A stretch of DNA of 48,812 nucleotides from Halothiobacillus sp. (GTDB taxonomy: Bacteria; Pseudomonadota; Gammaproteobacteria; Halothiobacillales; Halothiobacillaceae). The notes below the pieces were generated by a model, which did not search any database, was not told the origin of the DNA, and saw nothing but the letters and a program-made list of their open reading frames with translations. Shown one piece after another: positions 752-38,344 of this stretch (position 1 is the first letter of the stretch; each line of letters starts with the position of its first letter). A program made the position numbers and the translations under genes. Where the stretch lies: NCBI GenBank assembly GCA_020061705.1, contig JAGUXT010000054.1, positions 1 through 48,812 on the forward strand. Reading direction: 5' to 3'.

Positions 752-1762
752 ATGTCATCGACAAACACAGGCGTGCTAAACGAAGTCAAATCCGTTGCGC
801 CGATCAACCGATCCAAGCTTTCCTTTGTCTTGGGCGATGTTGTATTTAAGTTTACAGCGCTGTTTTTTGCCTTGGTCGTGCTGATGTTGCTTATCGGTAT
901 CGTCGCCATGCTGATCCAGGGCTCGTTGCCTGCCTTTCAAGCCTTCGGTTGGGGCTTTATTACTGGCAACGATTGGGATCCTGTGCAAGATATTTATGGT
1001 GCCTGGCCTTCGCTGGTGGGTACGCTGGTGGCGGCATTGATTGCAATGCTGATTGGTTTGCCTCTGTCCTTCGGTATCGCCATTTTTATTACTGAAATGG
1101 CTCCGCAATGGTTGAAGCGCCCGGTGGGTACGGCGGTTGAACTGCTGGCGGCCGTGCCTTCCATTATCTATGGTATGTGGGGCTTGTTTTTCTTCGCTCC
1201 ATTCTTTGCGGCCTATATTCAGCCAGGGCTGGTTGCCGTACTTGGGCCTCTGCCGATTTTCGGTGTTTTGTTCCAGATGCCGACACTGGGCGGTTCCAGC
1301 GGCGTCAGCGTGCTGACTGCCGGCATCGTGCTGGCCATTATGGTTATACCGTTCATGGCTTCGGTGATGCGCGATGTGTTTGAAATCGTTCCGGGCAGTT
1401 TGCGCGAGTCGGCCTACGCTATGGGTGCAACCACTTGGGAAGTGGTGTGGAATGTTGTCCTGCCCTACACCAAAACCGGTGTGGTGGGTGGTGTCATGCT
1501 CGGCTTGGGTCGCGCCCTTGGTGAAACCATGGCGGTCACCTTCATTATCGGTAACGCCAGTCAGCTGGGCTCCAGCCTGCTTGATCCCGGCACCACCATT
1601 GCGGCCAAGCTGGCCAATGAGTTCAACGAGGCCGATGGCCTGCAAATGGACAGCCTGGTTGCCATGGGTTTGATCCTGTTTATTATCACTTTTGTCGTCC
1701 TGATGTTGTCCAAGCTCATGCTGATGCGCTTGGCTGCAAGCCAGGAAGGTAGCAAGACTTGA
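752..1762 (+). CDS. pstC: Phosphate ABC transporter permease PstC
   Basis: One of the two inner-membrane permease subunits of the Pst phosphate importer; it pairs with PstA and is driven by PstB. The 336-residue length is close to the family norm of about 320. After a polar N-terminus the first membrane helix lies at roughly residues 30-55, followed by five more hydrophobic segments. The permease-ATPase coupling (EAA) loop is visible near residues 220-260 as [14 protein letters not shown], then [12 protein letters not shown], both typical of PstC. The ATG at 752 follows a 138-base gap containing hairpins. The stop is 10 bases before pstA, so the two are surely co-transcribed. Confidence 0.96.
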
Positions 1763-1772
1763 GGCAGTTAGT

Positions 1773-2612
1773 ATGAATCTTTACACACGTCGCAAGCTTA
1801 TCAATACATTCAACATGACCGCCGCTGTGCTGACTACGGTGGTTGGTGTGATGTTGCTGAGCTGGATTCTGATCGTCCTTATCATGAAAGGTGTGGGCGC
1901 AATCAACTGGACGATTTTCACCGAAATGACCCCGCCTCCCGGCAGCGCAGGCGGTCTTGCCAACGCGCTGGTCGGTAGCCTGATGATTACCATGGTCGCG
2001 GTGGTAATCGGTACCCCGATCGGCATTATGGCGGGCACCTATCTTGCCGAATATGGCAAGCAGAGCGTGTTCGCCGAAGTGGTGCGTACCATTAACGACA
2101 TTTTGCTGTCCGCGCCATCCATCATTATCGGGGTGTTCGTTTATGCTCTGATGGTCAAGCCGATGGGGCACTTCTCTGGTTGGGCGGGTGCGGTTGCCTT
2201 GGCGATCATTGTGATTCCCGTTGTACTGCGTACCACGGAAAACATGCTTTCGCTGGTGCCAACTCAGATGCGCGAGGCCGCTGCGGCCTTGGGGGCTCCA
2301 AAGTGGATGGTCATCTCAAGCGTGGTTTACAAAGCCGCGATTGCAGGTATGGTTACTGGTGTGTTGCTCGCTGTGGCGCGCATTACGGGTGAAACGGCTC
2401 CTCTGCTGTTTACTGCGCTGAACAACCAGTTCTGGTCTACGGACATGAACGATTCGATGGCCAACCTGCCGGTCGTGATTTTCCAGTTTGCCATGAGCCC
2501 TTACGACGACTGGCGTGAGTTGGCTTGGGCCGCAGCCCTGCTGATTACCACCCTTGTTCTGGTTATGAATATCTTGGCGCGGGTTCTTTTGCCCGAAAAC
2601 AAGACAAGATAA
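1773..2612 (+). CDS. pstA: Phosphate ABC transporter permease PstA
   Basis: Second permease subunit of the Pst phosphate importer. The 279 residues start with a hydrophobic helix (about 15-40) and contain repeated membrane segments. The EAA-type loop [17 protein letters not shown] is followed by [17 protein letters not shown], the PstA counterpart of the LGETMAV segment in PstC. The ATG lies 10 bases after pstC and the stop 14 bases before the chosen pstB start, so it is the middle gene of pstCAB. Length is slightly below the usual 290-300 but no conserved part appears missing. Confidence 0.96.
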
Positions 2613-2626
2613 GAGAGTTATCAAAA

Positions 2627-3526
2627 ATGAGCACGGAGAATCCCACGATGAGCACGATGGCAGAGCCGCAGAGCGGAAAAGTTAGTTTTAATATGGCAGC
2701 GGCCGTGACCAAAAAGTCATCGGGTACTGAGCAGAGCATGGCCCAAAAGGTTAATGGTGTTCGTCATGTTCCTAACGGCAAGCTGATTTTGCGTGATGTA
2801 AATTTCTTTTACGGCAATTTTCAGGGGCTACATGACATCAACGTCAGCTTTCCTGAACGCCAGGTTACGGCGATGATCGGCCCGTCGGGTTGTGGCAAGT
2901 CCACTTTGCTGCGCGCGATCAACCGTATCTACGATCTTTACCCTGGCCAACGCGCTGAAGGTGAGATTGTGATGGATGGTCACAATATGCTGGACAAGGC
3001 CATGGACGTAAACCAGTTGCGCGCCAAGATTGGCATGGTGTTCCAAAAGCCGACACCGTTCCCGATGTCGATTTACGACAACATTGCTTTTGGTGTGAAG
3101 CTGTATGAGAGCCTTTCCAAGTCGGACATGAATGACCGCGTGGAGTGGGCCTTGCGCAAGGGTGCGATCTGGGACGAGGTTAAGGACAAGCTCGGTCAGG
3201 CCGGTACGGCGCTGTCCGGTGGTCAGCAGCAGCGTCTGTGCATTGCGCGCAGTATTGCGGTCAAGCCAGAAGTTATTTTGTTTGACGAGCCCACTTCGGC
3301 GCTTGACCCGCTTGCCACACTGAAGATTGAAGAGCTGATTCACGAGCTGAAGTCAGAGTTCACCGTAGTGATCGTCACGCACAACATGCAGCAGGCGGCG
3401 CGTGTGTCGGATTACACAGCGTTCATGTACATGGGCAAAATGGTCGAATACGATCACACCAATGTGATTTTCACCATGCCGGACAAGAAGGAAACCGAAG
3501 ACTATATTACGGGTCGTTTCGGTTAA
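2627..3526 (+). CDS. pstB: Phosphate ABC transporter ATPase PstB
   Basis: Cytoplasmic ATPase of the Pst importer and, with PhoU, part of the phosphate-signalling complex in related bacteria. Walker A is GPSGCGKST, the ABC signature [16 protein letters not shown] and Walker [14 protein letters not shown]. The Q-loop region [14 protein letters not shown] and the C-terminal DYITGRFG are PstB hallmarks. I start the gene at the ATG at 2627, preceded by AAGAGAG. A longer frame upstream would overlap pstA by about 90 bases. With this start the protein is 299 residues, having a Ser/Thr/Met-rich extension of about 45 residues before the domain that E. coli PstB lacks; the internal Met at residue 8 or 11 is an alternative start. 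A strong terminator follows. Confidence 0.95.
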
Positions 3527-3541
3527 TTTTTAGCGTGCATT

Positions 3542-3616
3542 CCAACACGCTTTTCAGGTGTTGGCTTTGATACGGACTCGGTTTAAAAGCCCTGCGTTTG
3601 TGCAGGGCTTTTTTTA
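3542..3616 (+). terminator. Rho-independent terminator after pstB
   Basis: AAAAGCCCTGC (3585-3595) pairs with GCAGGGCTTTT (3602-3612) and is followed by a T-run to 3615. A second, weaker hairpin CCAACAC/GTGTTGG (3542-3563) precedes it. It closes the pstSCAB operon. Confidence 0.9.
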
Positions 3617-3660
3617 TGTTTGGACTTTAGATTGGCTTAGCCTTTTTCTATATCGACAGG

Positions 3661-3677
3661 TCATTAAACGTTAATGT
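3661..3677. promoter_or_regulatory. Palindrome upstream of the unknown gene at 3726
   Basis: CATTAA (3662-3667), spacer ACG and TTAATG (3671-3676) form a perfect inverted repeat in an AT-rich stretch about 50 bases before the start codon. The position would suit an operator. No regulator is identified. Confidence 0.35.
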
Positions 3678-3725
3678 GATCTGTGTATGTTGGGAAAAAT
3701 AAATTCTATATCAGGGGTTTGTAAT

Positions 3726-4274
3726 ATGCTCAAGCGCACTGAAGTCGGTAGTACCGCATTAGAAACGCGTGATCGAACGCTTTCGGTCAAGCAACGTGTC
3801 CTTTTGCGCATGGTGAATGGGGAAAACACCCGTTCAGAGCTGGAAAAAATATTTCCAGATCATGGTGCTGAGACCATTATGTTTCTGCTTGACGGTGGTT
3901 ATATCGAGCCGGTCGTTGTGCGGGTTGAGGTCGCAGTGACGGTTACGACCACCGCGCCTGTGCATGAGCAGTATCTTGAGTCCATGCCTGAGCAGTCGAG
4001 CACTGGACAGGAGGTTGCTTCGGTATATGTGCAGGTTTCATCCAAAAATCTGGCTGCGTTTCGGATGTATTTATTCGACCTTATCGAGCGTTGTGTAGCC
4101 TTTCACGGTCCGGAAGTGGCTAATGCCTGGCGAAATCGTGCGCGTTATGCGCAAGATCATGAATCGCTCAATGTACTGGCGATTGATCTGGTTTCCTGGT
4201 TGCGGGAAACGTCGTCGGTGGAGTTTGCTCAGCGCATAGAAGGTAGGATCAGTGAGTTTCTAAACTCGGCGTAA
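3726..4274 (+). CDS. Unknown protein with winged-helix-like N-terminus, between pst and phoU
   Basis: I do not recognise this as a named gene. I choose the ATG at 3726, preceded by CAGGGG at suitable spacing, rather than the in-frame ATG at 3687; this gives 182 residues. Residues about 18-60 (LSVKQRVLLRMVNGENTRSE followed by LEKIF and FLLDGGYIEP) resemble the short winged-helix-like segment seen in many small proteobacterial proteins that sense or relay signals. A Val/Thr-rich linker (about 62-90) joins it to a helical C-terminal half with several Trp and Arg residues. It has no signal peptide or membrane segment. It has its own terminator and upstream palindrome, so it is probably a single-gene unit. 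A role in phosphate control is suggested only by location. Confidence 0.8.
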   Translation: MLKRTEVGSTALETRDRTLSVKQRVLLRMVNGENTRSELEKIFPDHGAETIMFLLDGGYIEPVVVRVEVAVTVTTTAPVHEQYLESMPEQSSTGQEVASVYVQVSSKNLAAFRMYLFDLIERCVAFHGPEVANAWRNRARYAQDHESLNVLAIDLVSWLRETSSVEFAQRIEGRISEFLNSA

Positions 4275-4287
4275 ATAGTCATCACGC

Positions 4288-4324
4288 AATAAAAAAAACC
4301 GGATCAGATCCGGTTTTTTATTTT
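4288..4324. terminator. Bidirectional terminator between the unknown gene and phoU
   Basis: AAAAAACCGGATC and GATCCGGTTTTTT (about 4293-4319) form a perfect stem flanked by an A-run on the left and a T-run on the right. It can therefore end both the plus-strand gene and the convergent phoU transcript. Confidence 0.92.
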
Positions 4325-4344
4325 CTACAATGCGTTTTACGTAA

Positions 4345-5055
4345 TTACACTTTTTCGATTTGTTCTACAGTGTTATTCAAGTTGAGATGGCGCACATCAA
4401 CGCCCTTCTCTAGATAGACAATATATTCGCAGATGTTGGTGACATGGTCGCCAACACGTTCAATGGCGCGCATGCAGCTCAGGACGTTCAAGCTGTAATC
4501 AAGCGTGTTGGGATTGTCAGCCATGTGCTTCATCAAATCAGCAAGAACCTCACGGTAGGCATTGTTGACGTGTGTATCGGCTTGTTTGATGGCAATGGCC
4601 GCTTCTGCATCCATGCGCGCAAAGGCATCAAACGCATCGTGCAGCATTTTTTGGGTCATTTCTCCCATGACGTGAATGTCCTTCATAAAGCCATAACTGT
4701 TAACCAGTGGCTGAATGACAAGGGCGATACGTGCGATTTTTTCGGCTTTATCTCCGATACGTTCCATGTCGGCAACAATTTTGCTGGCGGTAAACAAGAA
4801 GCGCAGATCACTGGCGGCAGGTTGACGCGTCGCAATGATATCGACAATGCTTTGGTCGATATCCGTTTCAAATTGATTGACGCTCACGTCTCCCGCAGCA
4901 GCCGCTTCTCCAAGAGCGATGTTGCCATCGATAAGTGCACGAAGAGCGTTATCAAGTTGTTGCTCAATCAAACCACCCATGGACATGATGAGGTCGCGTA
5001 CATGGTTGAGGTCGTGGTCGAATTGGCTGCTGATGTGGGGTGCAGTTGTGTTCAT
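4345..5055 (-). CDS. phoU: Phosphate signalling protein PhoU
   Basis: PhoU links the Pst transporter to the PhoR sensor kinase and restrains Pho regulon expression and phosphate uptake when phosphate is plentiful. The 236-residue protein is all-helical with two PhoU repeats, each ending in the diagnostic metal-binding helix: MERIGDKAEKIARIA at about 110 and AIERVGDHVTNICEY at about 210. The acidic segment QFETDIDQSIVDI lies in the first repeat. The ATG at 5055 is preceded on the minus strand by AGGAG at 6-base spacing. Unusually it is not the last gene of the pst operon but convergent to it and divergent from ppk. Confidence 0.96.
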   Translation of the reverse strand: MNTTAPHISSQFDHDLNHVRDLIMSMGGLIEQQLDNALRALIDGNIALGEAAAAGDVSVNQFETDIDQSIVDIIATRQPAASDLRFLFTASKIVADMERIGDKAEKIARIALVIQPLVNSYGFMKDIHVMGEMTQKMLHDAFDAFARMDAEAAIAIKQADTHVNNAYREVLADLMKHMADNPNTLDYSLNVLSCMRAIERVGDHVTNICEYIVYLEKGVDVRHLNLNNTVEQIEKV

Positions 5056-26714: not shown

Positions 26715-27418
26715 AACTCAAGACATTGTTTGTTAGTGCGTTGCTATGCGTGGCATCAGCTAGTTATGCAGCGGATTTTAAAAAAGGGCTTGATGCCTAT
26801 ATTCAAAAAGATTATCAATCAGCTTTGCGTGAGTGGCGGCCTCTTGCCGAACAGGGGGATGTTAGGGCGCAATACTACATTGGCAACGTATACTCTGAAG
26901 GCTTGGATTTCCATGCCGAAGCAGTAAAGTGGTATCTCAAAGCTGCGGAACAAGGAGATGTTAATTCGCAGTTTGCACTTGGATTTATGTACTTCAAGGG
27001 CCTAGGTGTTCCTCAAAACTTCGATGAAGCTACAAAGTGGTGGCTAAAAGCGGCAGATAACCATCGTAAAAAAGCAGAACAAGGGGATGACATTGCGCAA
27101 TTAACCCTTGGAGAAATGTATCAACTAGGCCTAGGAGTATTTCAAGATGATGCCGAAGCGGTGAAGTGGTTCCGCAAGGCGGCTGAACAAGGGCAAACTA
27201 GATCCCAATTCAAATTGGGATTCATGTATGAAAACGGTCAAAGTGTACAAAAGGATTATGCACAAGCACATATGTGGTACAACATTGCAGCCTCAAAAGG
27301 TATGACTGATGCTGTTAAAGCTCGTGATGAGCTTGCTAAGAAGATGACTATCCAACAAATTAAGAATGCTCAGGAGTTGGCTGCGGAGTGGGTTAGAAAT
27401 CACCAGAAACGAGGTTAA
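26711..27418 (+). CDS. Sel1-repeat (TPR-like) protein with signal peptide
   Basis: Exported 235-residue protein made of Sel1-like repeats, which act as protein-binding scaffolds. A Sec signal peptide (KTLFVSALLCVASASYA, cleavage near residue 20) is followed by repeats such as AQYYIGNVYSEG, EAVKWYLKAAEQGD, SQFALGFMYFKGLGVPQN, AQLTLGEMYQLGLGVFQDD and SQFKLGFMYENGQSVQKDYA. The ATG at 26711 overlaps the stop of a recombinase fragment. The coding DNA is visibly more AT-rich than its neighbours, consistent with acquisition. Function cannot be given beyond scaffolding. Confidence 0.9.
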   Translation: MKLKTLFVSALLCVASASYAADFKKGLDAYIQKDYQSALREWRPLAEQGDVRAQYYIGNVYSEGLDFHAEAVKWYLKAAEQGDVNSQFALGFMYFKGLGVPQNFDEATKWWLKAADNHRKKAEQGDDIAQLTLGEMYQLGLGVFQDDAEAVKWFRKAAEQGQTRSQFKLGFMYENGQSVQKDYAQAHMWYNIAASKGMTDAVKARDELAKKMTIQQIKNAQELAAEWVRNHQKRG

Positions 27419-27530
27419 CTCCTAGGTAAGGACGGGCAAATGATGCCGCAAGGCTTTGCTTTGTCTGGTGCCTGCTGCCATGTGCGGTCACGGCGTTTTA
27501 ACTCATGGATATCAGTCTCATGAAAGTTTC

Positions 27531-33702: not shown

Positions 33703-34833
33703 ATGCACTCTTCATTCGCCCGCCGAAAGTTTTTACGCACAGCGCTCGCCCTGACAATGGCGCCGCAATGGGTGCGCGCAGACGAGGCGCGCCGTGTGGG
33801 GATTGTGACCGATCCGCTGTTTCTGGCGCACGACTGGCCGGAGCACTCGGAAGGCGCGTATCGCCTGCGCGCCATCCTTGAACGACTGGAAAATGATGGC
33901 TTGCTCGACCGCCTACTGGCGCAGAAGGCTCGCGCCGCCAGCGAAGCCGAACTGCTGCGCGGCCACACTGAGGGCTACCTCTTGGAGGTGCGAGTGGCCA
34001 GCGATGGCGAGCCGGGCTTTTTCAACTTCGGCATGCAGGACAATTACGTCAATCAGGCCACCTGGAGCGCGGCGCGTCATGCGGTGGGCGGCCTGATTGA
34101 TCTCTGCCGGGCGGTGGCCAAACGTGATCTGGATGCAGGTTTTGCGCTGGTGCGCCCGCCGGGGCATCATGCCGAACCCAGCCGTGCCATGGGCTTTTGC
34201 TTTGTCAGCAATATCGCCCTGGCCGCGCGCGCCTTGCAGGCCGAGGGCATCCAGCGCCTGGCGATTCTCGATTTCGACATTCATCACGGCAACGGCACCC
34301 AGGCCGTGGTGGGGCAAGATCCCAACATCCTGTTCCTCGATTTTCATCAATCCAGTCTGTTTCCCGCCGGAAGCGGCAGGATTGAGGAGATTGGCGAAGG
34401 CGCCGCGCGCGGAACCATCGTGAATGCCCCCGTGCCGCCCTATGTGGATGACGCAGGGTTTCTGGCCGTGTATGACCATGTTTTCGAGCCTGTGATGCGT
34501 CGCTTCAAACCGCAGATGCTGCTGGTCTCCGCTGGCTACGACGGTCACTGGCGCGACCCCTTGTCCCGGCAGAAAATCACCCTGCAAGGCTTCGACCAAC
34601 TCAGTCGCAGACTGGTGGATTTCGCCGATAAAAACTGTGGAGGGCGCGTGGTGTTCACGTTGGAGGGCGGCTACGACCCGGAGGTGTTGGGTCATGGCGT
34701 GGCCAACAGCCTGCGCGCAATGCTTGGCGATACGGAGTTCAACGACCCGGTGGGCGCGGAAGTGAAGGACATCCCGAGTGCAGACATCGCTGCGCTGGTG
34801 CAACGCTTGCGCAGCTTGCACGGGCTGGCCTGA
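33703..34833 (+). CDS. Histone-deacetylase-family amidohydrolase with Tat signal
   Basis: Zinc-dependent deacetylase of the arginase/HDAC fold; bacterial relatives act on acetylated polyamines, acetoin or small amides. The catalytic pieces are present: VRPPGHHAEPSRAMGFCFVS (paired His), LAILDFDIHHGNGTQ (zinc ligands Asp and His), SAGYDGHWRDPL (zinc Asp) and TLEGGYDPEVLG. The N-terminus ARRKFLRTALALTMAPQWVR is a good twin-arginine signal with probable cleavage after WVRA near residue 26. That would place the enzyme in the periplasm, which is unusual for this family. GGAAGG precedes the ATG. The gene faces an ArgE-like deacylase across 28 bases. Confidence 0.93.
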   Translation: MHSSFARRKFLRTALALTMAPQWVRADEARRVGIVTDPLFLAHDWPEHSEGAYRLRAILERLENDGLLDRLLAQKARAASEAELLRGHTEGYLLEVRVASDGEPGFFNFGMQDNYVNQATWSAARHAVGGLIDLCRAVAKRDLDAGFALVRPPGHHAEPSRAMGFCFVSNIALAARALQAEGIQRLAILDFDIHHGNGTQAVVGQDPNILFLDFHQSSLFPAGSGRIEEIGEGAARGTIVNAPVPPYVDDAGFLAVYDHVFEPVMRRFKPQMLLVSAGYDGHWRDPLSRQKITLQGFDQLSRRLVDFADKNCGGRVVFTLEGGYDPEVLGHGVANSLRAMLGDTEFNDPVGAEVKDIPSADIAALVQRLRSLHGLA

Positions 34834-36019: not shown

Positions 36020-36219
36020 GGCGGAATCCTCGGGGTGGATATTTCAAGGCATGATACGCAAATTTCAGGTTGCCACTTACCAAGTCCGGCATCCTTAATT
36101 GGCGATAGGAAAACGACAATGCAGGTGGTGAGCGCTTGTGATTGCGTGGAGGTTGAAACAAGCTTACCGTAGTACGGCGCTTGCGCTGGATAAAATACGT
36201 TAGCCCTCTTGGAGTTTCT

Positions 36220-36711
36220 ATGACCCTTTCCGATTTTTGGCTCAGTGTTTTGGCATCAAGCATCGCCAGTATTCTTGTTGTTATTTCTGCAAAAATTACC
36301 CTCGAAAGATGGAAGAAATGGGTAATCGGAATTGGTGCAGCCGCATTTTTTGCGCTGGTTGTGGCTGTAATCGTTTTCGCGGTATTTACAGTTACAAAAG
36401 AAGTTTCGTCATATTTAACGAGATCGTCACTTCAAGAGAAGATTGCTACCTACATAAAAGGGCACTATCCAGAAGAGCTAAAGAAAGGTTATGGCGTTGA
36501 TGTGCTTGAAATTCGTCAGCGTGTATTTCTTGGCTTCAAGTATCCCGACTCGGAGGCATATCCATCTCCTCATCCATTGAGTAATCCGGTATTCGACGCA
36601 GAAATCACAAAGCTACTTAACAACAATGGATTCTCTGGTACGCCTGCCTGGGGCTATCCCATTAAGCCCGCAACTGCAGAAGAGATGGAAGATCTCTTGC
36701 AGCAGAAATGA
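36220..36711 (+). CDS. Unknown small membrane protein in AT-rich island
   Basis: I do not recognise the family. From the ATG at 36220 (preferred over 36181 because the protein then opens directly on the first helix) it has 163 residues. Two hydrophobic helices lie at about 5-25 and 38-60 (AAAFFALVVAVIVFAVFTV), joined by a basic turn KITLERWKKW. A soluble tail of about 100 residues follows, with EELKKGYGVDVLEIRQRVFL. The coding sequence is AT-rich compared with the flanks, like the HEPN-type gene 77 bases downstream. The two may form one acquired unit. Confidence 0.75.
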   Translation: MTLSDFWLSVLASSIASILVVISAKITLERWKKWVIGIGAAAFFALVVAVIVFAVFTVTKEVSSYLTRSSLQEKIATYIKGHYPEELKKGYGVDVLEIRQRVFLGFKYPDSEAYPSPHPLSNPVFDAEITKLLNNNGFSGTPAWGYPIKPATAEEMEDLLQQK

Positions 36712-36788
36712 GGGGGCTAACTCGTCTCTCCACTGGTAAGCAGCTCAAGGCCGGTGAATTCAAGCATTAGATCAAGAGGTAAGGCTTA

Positions 36789-38303
36789 ATGGATTACACT
36801 TCACTCGACGAGTATGCCAAGTTGATTGATGGGGCAATTGATACAGGAGACGAGGACTTACTTCAGACGTTACTGGTGAAGCTTAATAATCTCCCGGAAC
36901 ATGATTTTAATAAAATTGAACTTTCCAAGATTGAATTCTTTAAGGCAAATTGTTATTCGGCGCTACGCCAACTCAAGGATAGACACCTTTCATGGGGCTG
37001 GGACGATCCAGAATTAGAGCGTGAGATTTATCATCTTCGGGCAGCACGAAATATGCTGTCGGAAGTCCCATTGAAGGAAGATCAAACGGACTTGCGTTTC
37101 AGAGTATCCACGAATCTTGCAAATGCACTCAATCATGTGGGTAGATTTGTTGAGGCCATTGATCTATGGGACGAAGTTTTGGCAGACGCCCCTGATTACG
37201 CTATGTCGGTAGGTAATAGAGGATTTGCGTTTCTTTGGTATGGAAAATATCTCTATGACCCAGGGCATCAGGGTATTTTATTAAATGAAAGTTATCACAA
37301 GATAAAACAGGCGCTTAAGATCGGGGTGGAGGATCATGCTGCGGTAGGGATGCAGGAGTGGCTAGATCATCTGCTAGAACTTCGCGACTGGGAAAGCTTT
37401 CATTTTCAGTCTGAAAATGAATCAAGAGGAGACTCTGAACGCGAAAAGTCTTACCGCACATGGTGTCTCAATCACAAGTTGTTCCTTAATCCGCTAAATG
37501 ATTTGTGGAAAGACGATATTGCTGCCAATGATGTTTTGACTTTTCCTTCGATAATCGTGAAGCTAGAAAAAAGTCACCGAGGGTCGCCACCGGAAGTCTA
37601 TGGGATTTACAATCAACTAAAACAAGAGTACGTCAGCGCTCGTTACATGCTGTTCGATGCAATCAAAGAATCACAAGAAGGCGTTCATTTCGCGGATAAG
37701 AGGGTTAAGCTATACAACATGCTTGATTATCGCAACTACCGCTTGTGGATAGAAAAAGTGAAAATGGCATTCCTTGGGGTGCATGCGATTTTCGACAAAA
37801 TTGCTTATTTGATCAATGAATACTGGGAATTGAATCAGCCCGCTAGGCGTATAAGCTTTAAGACATGCTGGTTTAACAACGGTAAAGCGGGCGACGGTTT
37901 CGTTCCGGCTTTTGATGCTTCTCAAAACTGGCCTTTGAGGGGATTGTACTGGATTAGCAAGGAATTTGTTGGTGAGAAAGAAATAAGTAGCTCGCTGCAA
38001 CCGGATGCCTGGCACATTGCAGAAATTCGTAACCACATCGCGCACAAATATCTAAAAGTCTTTGATCACTCTCTCGTTGATACTAAGTCGTGGCGTTGTG
38101 CTAAAGGGCATGAGTGGGAGTATCCAATAAGTGAGCGAGAGCTTATTAATCAAACATTGAAGCTGTTAAATCTAGTTAGGAGCGCACTGATATATGTATC
38201 GCTGGCAGCGTATGATGAGGAACGGAGAAAACTGTCTGAAATAGATGATGAGCTGATAGGTGAAATGCAGCTATTCGAAGTAGATGACAAATATCGGCTA
38301 TAG
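36789..38303 (+). CDS. LA2681-type HEPN-domain protein with TPR-like N-terminus
   Basis: A 504-residue protein matching the pattern of the LA2681-like HEPN family. Residues about 95-165 are TPR-like (RVSTNLANALNHVGRFVEAI, then NRGFAFLWYGKYLYD). Residues about 280-480 form the HEPN region: SARYMLFDAIKESQEGVHFA, KVKMAFLGVHAIFDKIAYLI and the R-x4-H motif in EIRNHIAHKYLKV (Arg414, His419). In known HEPN nucleases this motif is the RNase active site, so RNA cleavage in a defence or stress setting is plausible. The DNA is AT-rich with many rare-looking codons compared with its neighbours. AGAGGTAAGG precedes the ATG. Partner proteins are not evident apart from the membrane protein upstream. Confidence 0.8.
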   Translation: MDYTSLDEYAKLIDGAIDTGDEDLLQTLLVKLNNLPEHDFNKIELSKIEFFKANCYSALRQLKDRHLSWGWDDPELEREIYHLRAARNMLSEVPLKEDQTDLRFRVSTNLANALNHVGRFVEAIDLWDEVLADAPDYAMSVGNRGFAFLWYGKYLYDPGHQGILLNESYHKIKQALKIGVEDHAAVGMQEWLDHLLELRDWESFHFQSENESRGDSEREKSYRTWCLNHKLFLNPLNDLWKDDIAANDVLTFPSIIVKLEKSHRGSPPEVYGIYNQLKQEYVSARYMLFDAIKESQEGVHFADKRVKLYNMLDYRNYRLWIEKVKMAFLGVHAIFDKIAYLINEYWELNQPARRISFKTCWFNNGKAGDGFVPAFDASQNWPLRGLYWISKEFVGEKEISSSLQPDAWHIAEIRNHIAHKYLKVFDHSLVDTKSWRCAKGHEWEYPISERELINQTLKLLNLVRSALIYVSLAAYDEERRKLSEIDDELIGEMQLFEVDDKYRL

Positions 38304-38344
38304 GTGTAACAAAATGATTTGGGCGCATTACTGAGGTTCGTTGC

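Follow-up and report, generated by a model that had tools for sequence, protein, structure and literature searches.

Two genes lie on the forward strand of an AT-rich insert in the 48,812-nucleotide stretch of a Halothiobacillus sp. genome analyzed here (contig JAGUXT010000054.1; referred to as the 48.8-kb window). The insert is flanked by argE and a cytochrome c gene. ORF1 encodes a small protein with two predicted membrane helices, ORF2 encodes a larger protein that joins a TPR solenoid to a HEPN domain, and a putative relic of an integron attC site separates the two. The features are listed below, with the basis for each in parentheses.

36152 to 36154, + strand: GTT, end of the sequence shared with the sister genome G371 and possible insertion point (alignment to G371)
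36155 to 38303, no strand: AT-rich insert between argE and the cytochrome c gene (composition; comparison with G372 and G371)
36199 to 36205, + strand: putative R' box GTTAGCC, start of the proposed cassette 1 (exact reverse complement of the R'' box at 36715 to 36721)
36220 to 36711, + strand: ORF1, 163 aa, two predicted membrane helices, gene of the proposed cassette 1 (ATG at 36220; relatives; helix prediction)
36715 to 36772, + strand: decayed attC site, R'' GGCTAAC and R' ATTAGAT (attC model R1, 22.1 bits, E 0.0029; blastn with the G374 attC site)
36789 to 38303, + strand: ORF2, 504 aa, TPR plus HEPN_LA2681 protein (PF18733; AlphaFold2 model)
36789 to 37409, + strand: TPR solenoid, ORF2 residues 1 to 207 (structure alignment; TPR profile matches)
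37584 to 38219, + strand: HEPN domain, ORF2 residues 266 to 477 (PF18733)
38028 to 38045, + strand: R414-x4-H419 motif of ORF2 (alignment of 32 rows)

Composition and boundaries of the insert

An earlier reading of this DNA from its letters alone (the sequence-only reading) had described an AT-rich island with a sharp change in composition, and both composition and comparison with genomes of the same genus bore this description out and mark the island as foreign. GC content drops from about 0.64 to 0.43 to 0.45 inside the island and then returns to 0.54 to 0.58. The insert as a whole has a GC content of 0.434, compared to a mean of 0.570 (standard deviation, 0.034) for the other 2,084-base windows of the 48.8-kb window, and the minimum among 425 overlapping windows of the island's length, 0.471, lies above the island's value. 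Third-position GC is 0.40 in ORF1 and 0.435 in ORF2, compared to 0.61 to 0.80 in 13 other genes of the window. Two other low-GC stretches occur in the window, at 3251 to 4751 and 26751 to 27500 (GC 0.444 to 0.478 in 500-base windows).

We compared the genome of the window (G000) with two other genomes of the genus. G372 has a near-empty site, with about 115 bases between the start of argE and the cytochrome c gene; its argE matches over residues 1 to 123 only, with a stop, and the junction that joins the start of argE to the cytochrome c gene is intact. In the sister genome G371, argE is 95% identical and the same gap is filled by another insert, about 0.8 kb long, which carries a DUF3224-like gene, so named for its likeness to a G000 gene that matches DUF3224. 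The sequence common to the window and G371 ends on the left at the GTT at 36152 to 36154, so the left edge of the insert falls slightly further left than originally placed, and it restarts on the right at about 38302 to 38311, around the stop codon of the HEPN gene. Integron integrases cut at a GTT-type triplet. A tRNA-borne island was considered and rejected, as the window contains no tRNA, and no promoter-like sites above chance were found.

Sequence and predicted structure of ORF2

ORF2 had been read as an LA2681-type HEPN protein with TPR-like repeats in front of an R-x4-H motif, and each element of this description held up. The protein matches PF18733 (HEPN_LA2681) with 212.6 bits (cut-off, 27) and an E value of 5.1e-63. 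Arg414 and His419 lie at the positions first reported (AEIRNHIAHKY) and are conserved in relatives: in an alignment of 32 rows, comprising the window protein and relatives at 22 to 38% identity, R414 is kept in every row and H419 in 31, the remaining row having a gap. The residue before the histidine is alanine (Ala418) in ORF2, where glutamate is usual (29 of the 32 rows). R414 and H419 are the putative RNase catalytic residues of ORF2.

The full-length AlphaFold2 model, built with 20 sequences, has a pLDDT of 82.1 and a pTM of 0.86. Residues 1 to 207 model as a TPR solenoid and align to many TPR chains with a VIA-align Z score of about 11, and it is this fold that provides the TPR fusion typical of the HEPN_LA2681 family; single-domain TPR matches in Pfam are weak and below the cut-off. 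When the C-terminal part was modeled alone (pLDDT, 76.2), the HepT toxin chain 6m6u_H was near the top of its matches (Z, 8.2; rmsd, 3.4; 128 of 131 residues aligned), with unrelated helical bundles such as rhodopsins within one Z unit. Further HEPN-type matches to this model (5yep, 8xdj, 7ae8, 1jog, and Csm6) likewise stood amid close-scoring helical bundles. A Foldseek search of the PDB gave no match at an E value of ≤0.001 for either the whole of ORF2 or its HEPN part (E above 0.3 for the latter). The HEPN assignment of ORF2, a prediction from its sequence, is carried by the Pfam match and the motif.

Distribution and neighborhoods of the LA2681 family

The LA2681 family is rare. Only 1 of 369 genomes of the class, that of the window itself, has a match over the cut-off, as do 4 of 398 genomes of the phylum, the window's own included. 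At an E value of ≤1e-5, the family is matched in 19 plasmid records (of 72,556 searched) and in a single phage record (of 50,697), and 20 viral contigs with LA2681 were found. The relatives are located on plasmids and prophage-like contigs and range over haloarchaea, Fusobacteria, and Proteobacteria; a tyrosine integrase adjoins two of them (L094 and L080). A search of genome_contigs with ORF2 returned one match of 16 residues.

The proposed link to defense found support in the neighborhoods of these relatives. Ten large neighbors, picked by size with one per locus from 10 loci, were scanned with PADLOC, and 6 of them gave a match at an E value of ≤1e-10, compared to none of 10 window genes, which are ordinary chromosomal genes and not matched for mobile context. 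The six matches were to type III restriction, type IIG, HKD+Snf2, a PbeA-like helicase, PDC-M54A, and a type II methyltransferase. Across 105 scanned neighbors of LA2681 relatives, 269 PADLOC families were matched, a count of families rather than proteins. The LA2681 proteins themselves matched no PADLOC model (0 of 12), and PADLOC contains no LA2681 model. In the accessible part of a HEPN survey (PMC3710099), Table 1 lists LA2681 as HEPN fused to TPR with a conserved motif, and RNase activity is predicted for HEPN domains that bear the R-x4-6-H motif. Our literature search found no functional test of any LA2681 protein.

ORF1 and its relation to ORF2

ORF1 starts at ATG 36220 (the mechanical ORF list has TTG 36181), and its hydrophobic stretches span residues 6 to 24 and 38 to 56. 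Four plasmid records of P. aeruginosa contain relatives (53%), as does, besides its own genome, one of 398 phylum genomes (G413; 30%); none were found in 56 other genomes of relatives. A phage origin was rejected, with no match in the phages or viral_contigs collections, as was membership in a known family: Pfam, NCBIfam, PADLOC, and PHROGs gave sub-threshold matches only, of which the sole suggestive one was to a CBASS-type 2TM effector model (E 0.004). In G413, the relative belongs to a type I restriction locus (L124:1434-12501), where it is flanked by DUF6161 and Abi_2 proteins; these three and a RhuM-like protein stand between HsdS and HsdR (the Hsd and RhuM names come from reading the translations). 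In P. aeruginosa, it comes after a large kinase-helicase protein and a 482-aa protein. ORF1 may itself be linked to defense, though not to LA2681.

The sequence-only reading had also proposed ORF1 as the membrane partner of the HEPN protein, the two forming a two-gene defense or stress system, and had named conserved pairing as a test of this idea. No such pairing was seen. ORF1 relatives occur at none of 35 LA2681 loci, a set that contains near-duplicates (e.g., L091 to L098) and some flanks cut by contig ends, and LA2681 occurs at neither of the two loci with an ORF1 relative. A script found a short same-strand ORF upstream in 13 of the 35 loci. Two of these 13 ORFs (in L010 and L080) have predicted helices; neither is related to ORF1, and that of L080 is not a true upstream gene because the HEPN gene there is on the other strand.

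A decayed attC site between ORF1 and ORF2

We gathered attC sites from the integrons of relatives and built a covariance model (R1) from 17 of them. In the 48.8-kb window, its sole match is the site at 36715 to 36772, which lies between the two ORFs in the right direction; its 22.1 bits compare with a best background score of 18.8 bits over 36 other loci (408 kb). A blastn search of the window with the G374 attC site gave a match at 36739 to 36770 with an E value of 5e-5, which is optimistic by a factor of about 20 (roughly as many attC sites were inspected) because this query was chosen after the likeness had been seen; the next best place had an E value of 0.33 or above. The GTTAGCC at 36199 to 36205 is one of only two plus-strand occurrences in the window. 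ORF1 stops 4 bases ahead of the attC site. We examined 26 attC sites in G000 and G371, of which 3 have no ORF ending nearby and the others give 23 attC-adjacent ORFs; the same tight spacing between stop codon and attC is found in 16 of these 23, ORF1 counted, and about 2.4% of window positions would show such an ORF end by chance. Because the model match, the complementary R' and R'' boxes, and the tight stop spacing occur together, we read ORF1, with good confidence, as a predicted integron cassette. The attC site is probably dead, since its R' box reads ATTAGAT and the GTT triplet is broken, judging from known attC sites. The relic was missed by a script that looks for intact attC sites, which reported none in the island because the R' box there has ATT rather than GTT; the covariance model detected the relic.

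ORF2 starts 17 bases past the attC site, and the model found no attC site at its 3' end. Its position and the composition and junctions that it shares with ORF1 suggest that ORF2 could be a second cassette that has lost its 3' attC site. Since that site is absent and may have been lost, we treat ORF2 as a likely cassette only and do not file it as one. Near the 35 other LA2681 loci, no attC site was found apart from one weak match (18.8 bits, E 0.15). The 0.8-kb insert of G371 was also considered as a cassette; the attC model gives it 4.3 bits, which is not significant, and only a motif likeness remains. The presence of the attC relic between the genes is more readily explained by separate acquisition of two cassettes than by a single operon.

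No intact integron integrase was found in G000 over the TIGR02249 cut-off (best score, 78.4 bits; cut-off, 265), and integrases over the cut-off are present in 14 of 40 genomes of relatives. The accessible text of PMC12444791 uses a threshold of at least two attC sites for a CALIN. The window has a single attC site and does not qualify as a CALIN by the count of at least two together.

Other attC sites in the genus

Outside the window, G000 has seven further attC matches at an E value of ≤0.1, on four contigs; that list does not include the weaker site of the window itself. G371 has 18 matches. Products of the ORFs near the G000 sites include a TIR protein of the CAP12/Pycsar type (E 4e-33), a nuclease resembling DpnII-MboI (E 5e-12), a DUF3224 protein, and, at the borderline of its cut-off (28.5 bits against 28.4), a HEPN_RiboL-PSP protein, and 6 of 10 ORFs scanned at these sites had no Pfam match. 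On one contig (L120; G000 C57:60500-67000), two attC matches flank the TIR gene (276 aa) and a low-GC ORF of 287 aa (positions 2056 to 4024 of the locus). On another (L119; G000 C42:34500-39000, positions 1189 to 3234 of the locus), an attC match lies between the borderline HEPN_RiboL-PSP ORF with a 72-aa ORF and the DpnII-MboI-like nuclease gene. On a third (L118; G000 C13:102000-106500, positions 1216 to 2313 of the locus), an attC match directly follows a 346-aa ORF with an HVVILGAGAT stretch that appears SIR2-like by eye; this ORF has no match in Pfam or PADLOC.

In G371, a 590-aa ORF, apparently an Old-family nuclease, ends 2 bases before an attC site (L130; G371 C43:11000-15000, positions 2062 to 3831). 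The PADLOC scan, which covered 21 of the 23 attC-adjacent ORFs and left out 2 doubtful ones, listed an Old-family match among the attC-ended ORFs of G371 (E 1e-233), which we assigned to the 590-aa ORF by its length and ATPase start. An Old gene of this length ending in an attC site means that a defense cassette of a size similar to that of ORF2 probably exists in the genus. Elsewhere in G371, small ORFs accompany a run of six attC matches that, with no integrase observed, constitutes a CALIN (L121; C55:9500-15000). On the other side of argE in G371, a methyltransferase-like ORF ends in a 47-bit attC site (L049:8871-9729); its place in the window is taken by a histone-deacetylase-like gene (33703 to 34833).

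It is possible, though on balance doubtful, that these sites reflect a genus-wide pattern, in which the genus lost or broke its integron and keeps single orphan cassettes at gene boundaries throughout the chromosome. Such cassettes would be rich in one-gene defense systems (LA2681 HEPN, CAP12-type TIR, Old nuclease, and DpnII-MboI-like nuclease) and would amount to a defense island in pieces, with the LA2681 TPR-HEPN protein the first of its family to be seen directly behind an attC site.

DISCUSSION

We consider it reasonably likely that ORF1 and ORF2 are two independently captured orphan cassettes that lie outside any integron and are not a pair and that the HEPN protein is a single-gene, TPR-triggered defense RNase. 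The computed basis of this reading is the insert, the attC relic, the conserved motif, the TPR fold, the defense-type neighbors of relatives, and the lack of pairing. Our confidence in the attC relic and in the lack of pairing is higher than in the reading as a whole, and our confidence in the defense role is lower. The cassettes would have inserted between argE and the cytochrome c gene, and the island would be their remains: cassette 1 (about 36200 to 36766) would comprise ORF1 and its own, now decayed, attC site, and the HEPN gene would be the second cassette, its 3' attC site lost. In the proposed mechanism, the TPR solenoid (residues 1 to 207) would act as sensor and lock, perceiving a ligand perhaps derived from phage or stress. 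Sensing would release the C-terminal HEPN domain, a putative HEPN dimer would cleave RNA through R414 and H419, and, if the gene is expressed in the host, growth would halt on infection in a defense of the abortive-infection type.

Other accounts of the locus differ in how the HEPN gene arrived and what it does. It is rather unlikely that only ORF1 came as a cassette and that the HEPN gene, acting alone, arrived by another route, such as a plasmid or prophage, with cassette 1 landing beside it. The relatives on plasmids and prophage-like contigs would fit such a route, as would the lack of an attC site past the HEPN gene and of any clear one at the 35 other LA2681 loci; against this, the HEPN gene begins only 17 bases past the attC site, its composition is like that of ORF1, and the insert in its entirety occupies a single interval, one where G371 carries another insert. 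A similarly modest chance attaches to the HEPN gene not being a working defense here, whether as a silent relic or as a stress RNase with another role. The 504-codon frame, however, is intact although the neighboring attC site has decayed, the catalytic residues R414 and H419 are kept, and the family is rare (4 of 398 phylum genomes), patchy, and carried by mobile elements, unlike a housekeeping gene. What speaks for inactivity or another role is the decayed attC site itself, together with the missing integrase, the lack of promoter-like sites above chance, the departure of Ala418 from the usual glutamate, and the absence, from the literature searched, of tests on any LA2681 protein.

The two-gene membrane plus HEPN system originally proposed is very improbable. 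ORF1 and ORF2 are on the same strand, 77 bases apart, and alike in composition, and relatives of ORF1 are found in defense-type loci; nevertheless, we reject this system because the genes do not co-occur elsewhere (0 of 35 LA2681 loci and 0 of 2 ORF1 loci) and because the attC relic stands between them.

LA2681 proteins often adjoin restriction or other defense genes, and the member in the window is a single compact gene. The locus suggests that cassettes can leave defense genes scattered along a chromosome once the integrase is gone, and cassettes scattered in this way would escape tools that seek defense islands or complete integrons.

Several known systems resemble parts of this locus. FS_HEPN_TM is the name of a DefenseFinder system; the likeness, a HEPN protein plus a membrane protein, is by name only, our literature search for it found no paper, and ORF1 and ORF2 never co-occur elsewhere in the loci surveyed. 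HepT toxins (6m6u, 5yep, and 7ae8) are like the C-terminal fold of ORF2 (Z scores of 8.2 and 7.8 to 7.9, with helical bundles scoring closely), but a nucleotidyltransferase antitoxin gene lies beside HepT and none lies beside ORF2. In domain content, ORF2 does not differ from the HEPN_LA2681 family (PF18733) as given in the accessible part of PMC3710099, that is, HEPN with R-x4-6-H fused to TPR; it differs in having Ala418 for glutamate and in lying behind an attC relic. DS-11, according to the accessible text of PMC13092281, is a one-protein CBS-HEPN defense system in which the catalytic HEPN residues are needed for defense. Like ORF2, it combines a sensor domain and HEPN in one protein, with CBS in place of TPR. 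Anti-phage genes in integron cassettes are established in Vibrio and mobile integrons (Darracq, Kieffer, and Getz 2025, via the accessible portions of PMC12409362 and PMC12444791), and cassettes are described as inserting at attG sites in the genome (Loot 2024, cited in the accessible portions of PMC12901181 and PMC12444791). The locus shares with these a predicted cassette of one gene whose stop codon is followed by attC and an insertion outside an integron, whereas here there is a single decayed attC site in a genome with no detected integrase, and the LA2681 gene is not named in the accessible portions of those papers. The find fits known kinds of system, and what is new is an LA2681 protein in a putative integron-cassette setting.
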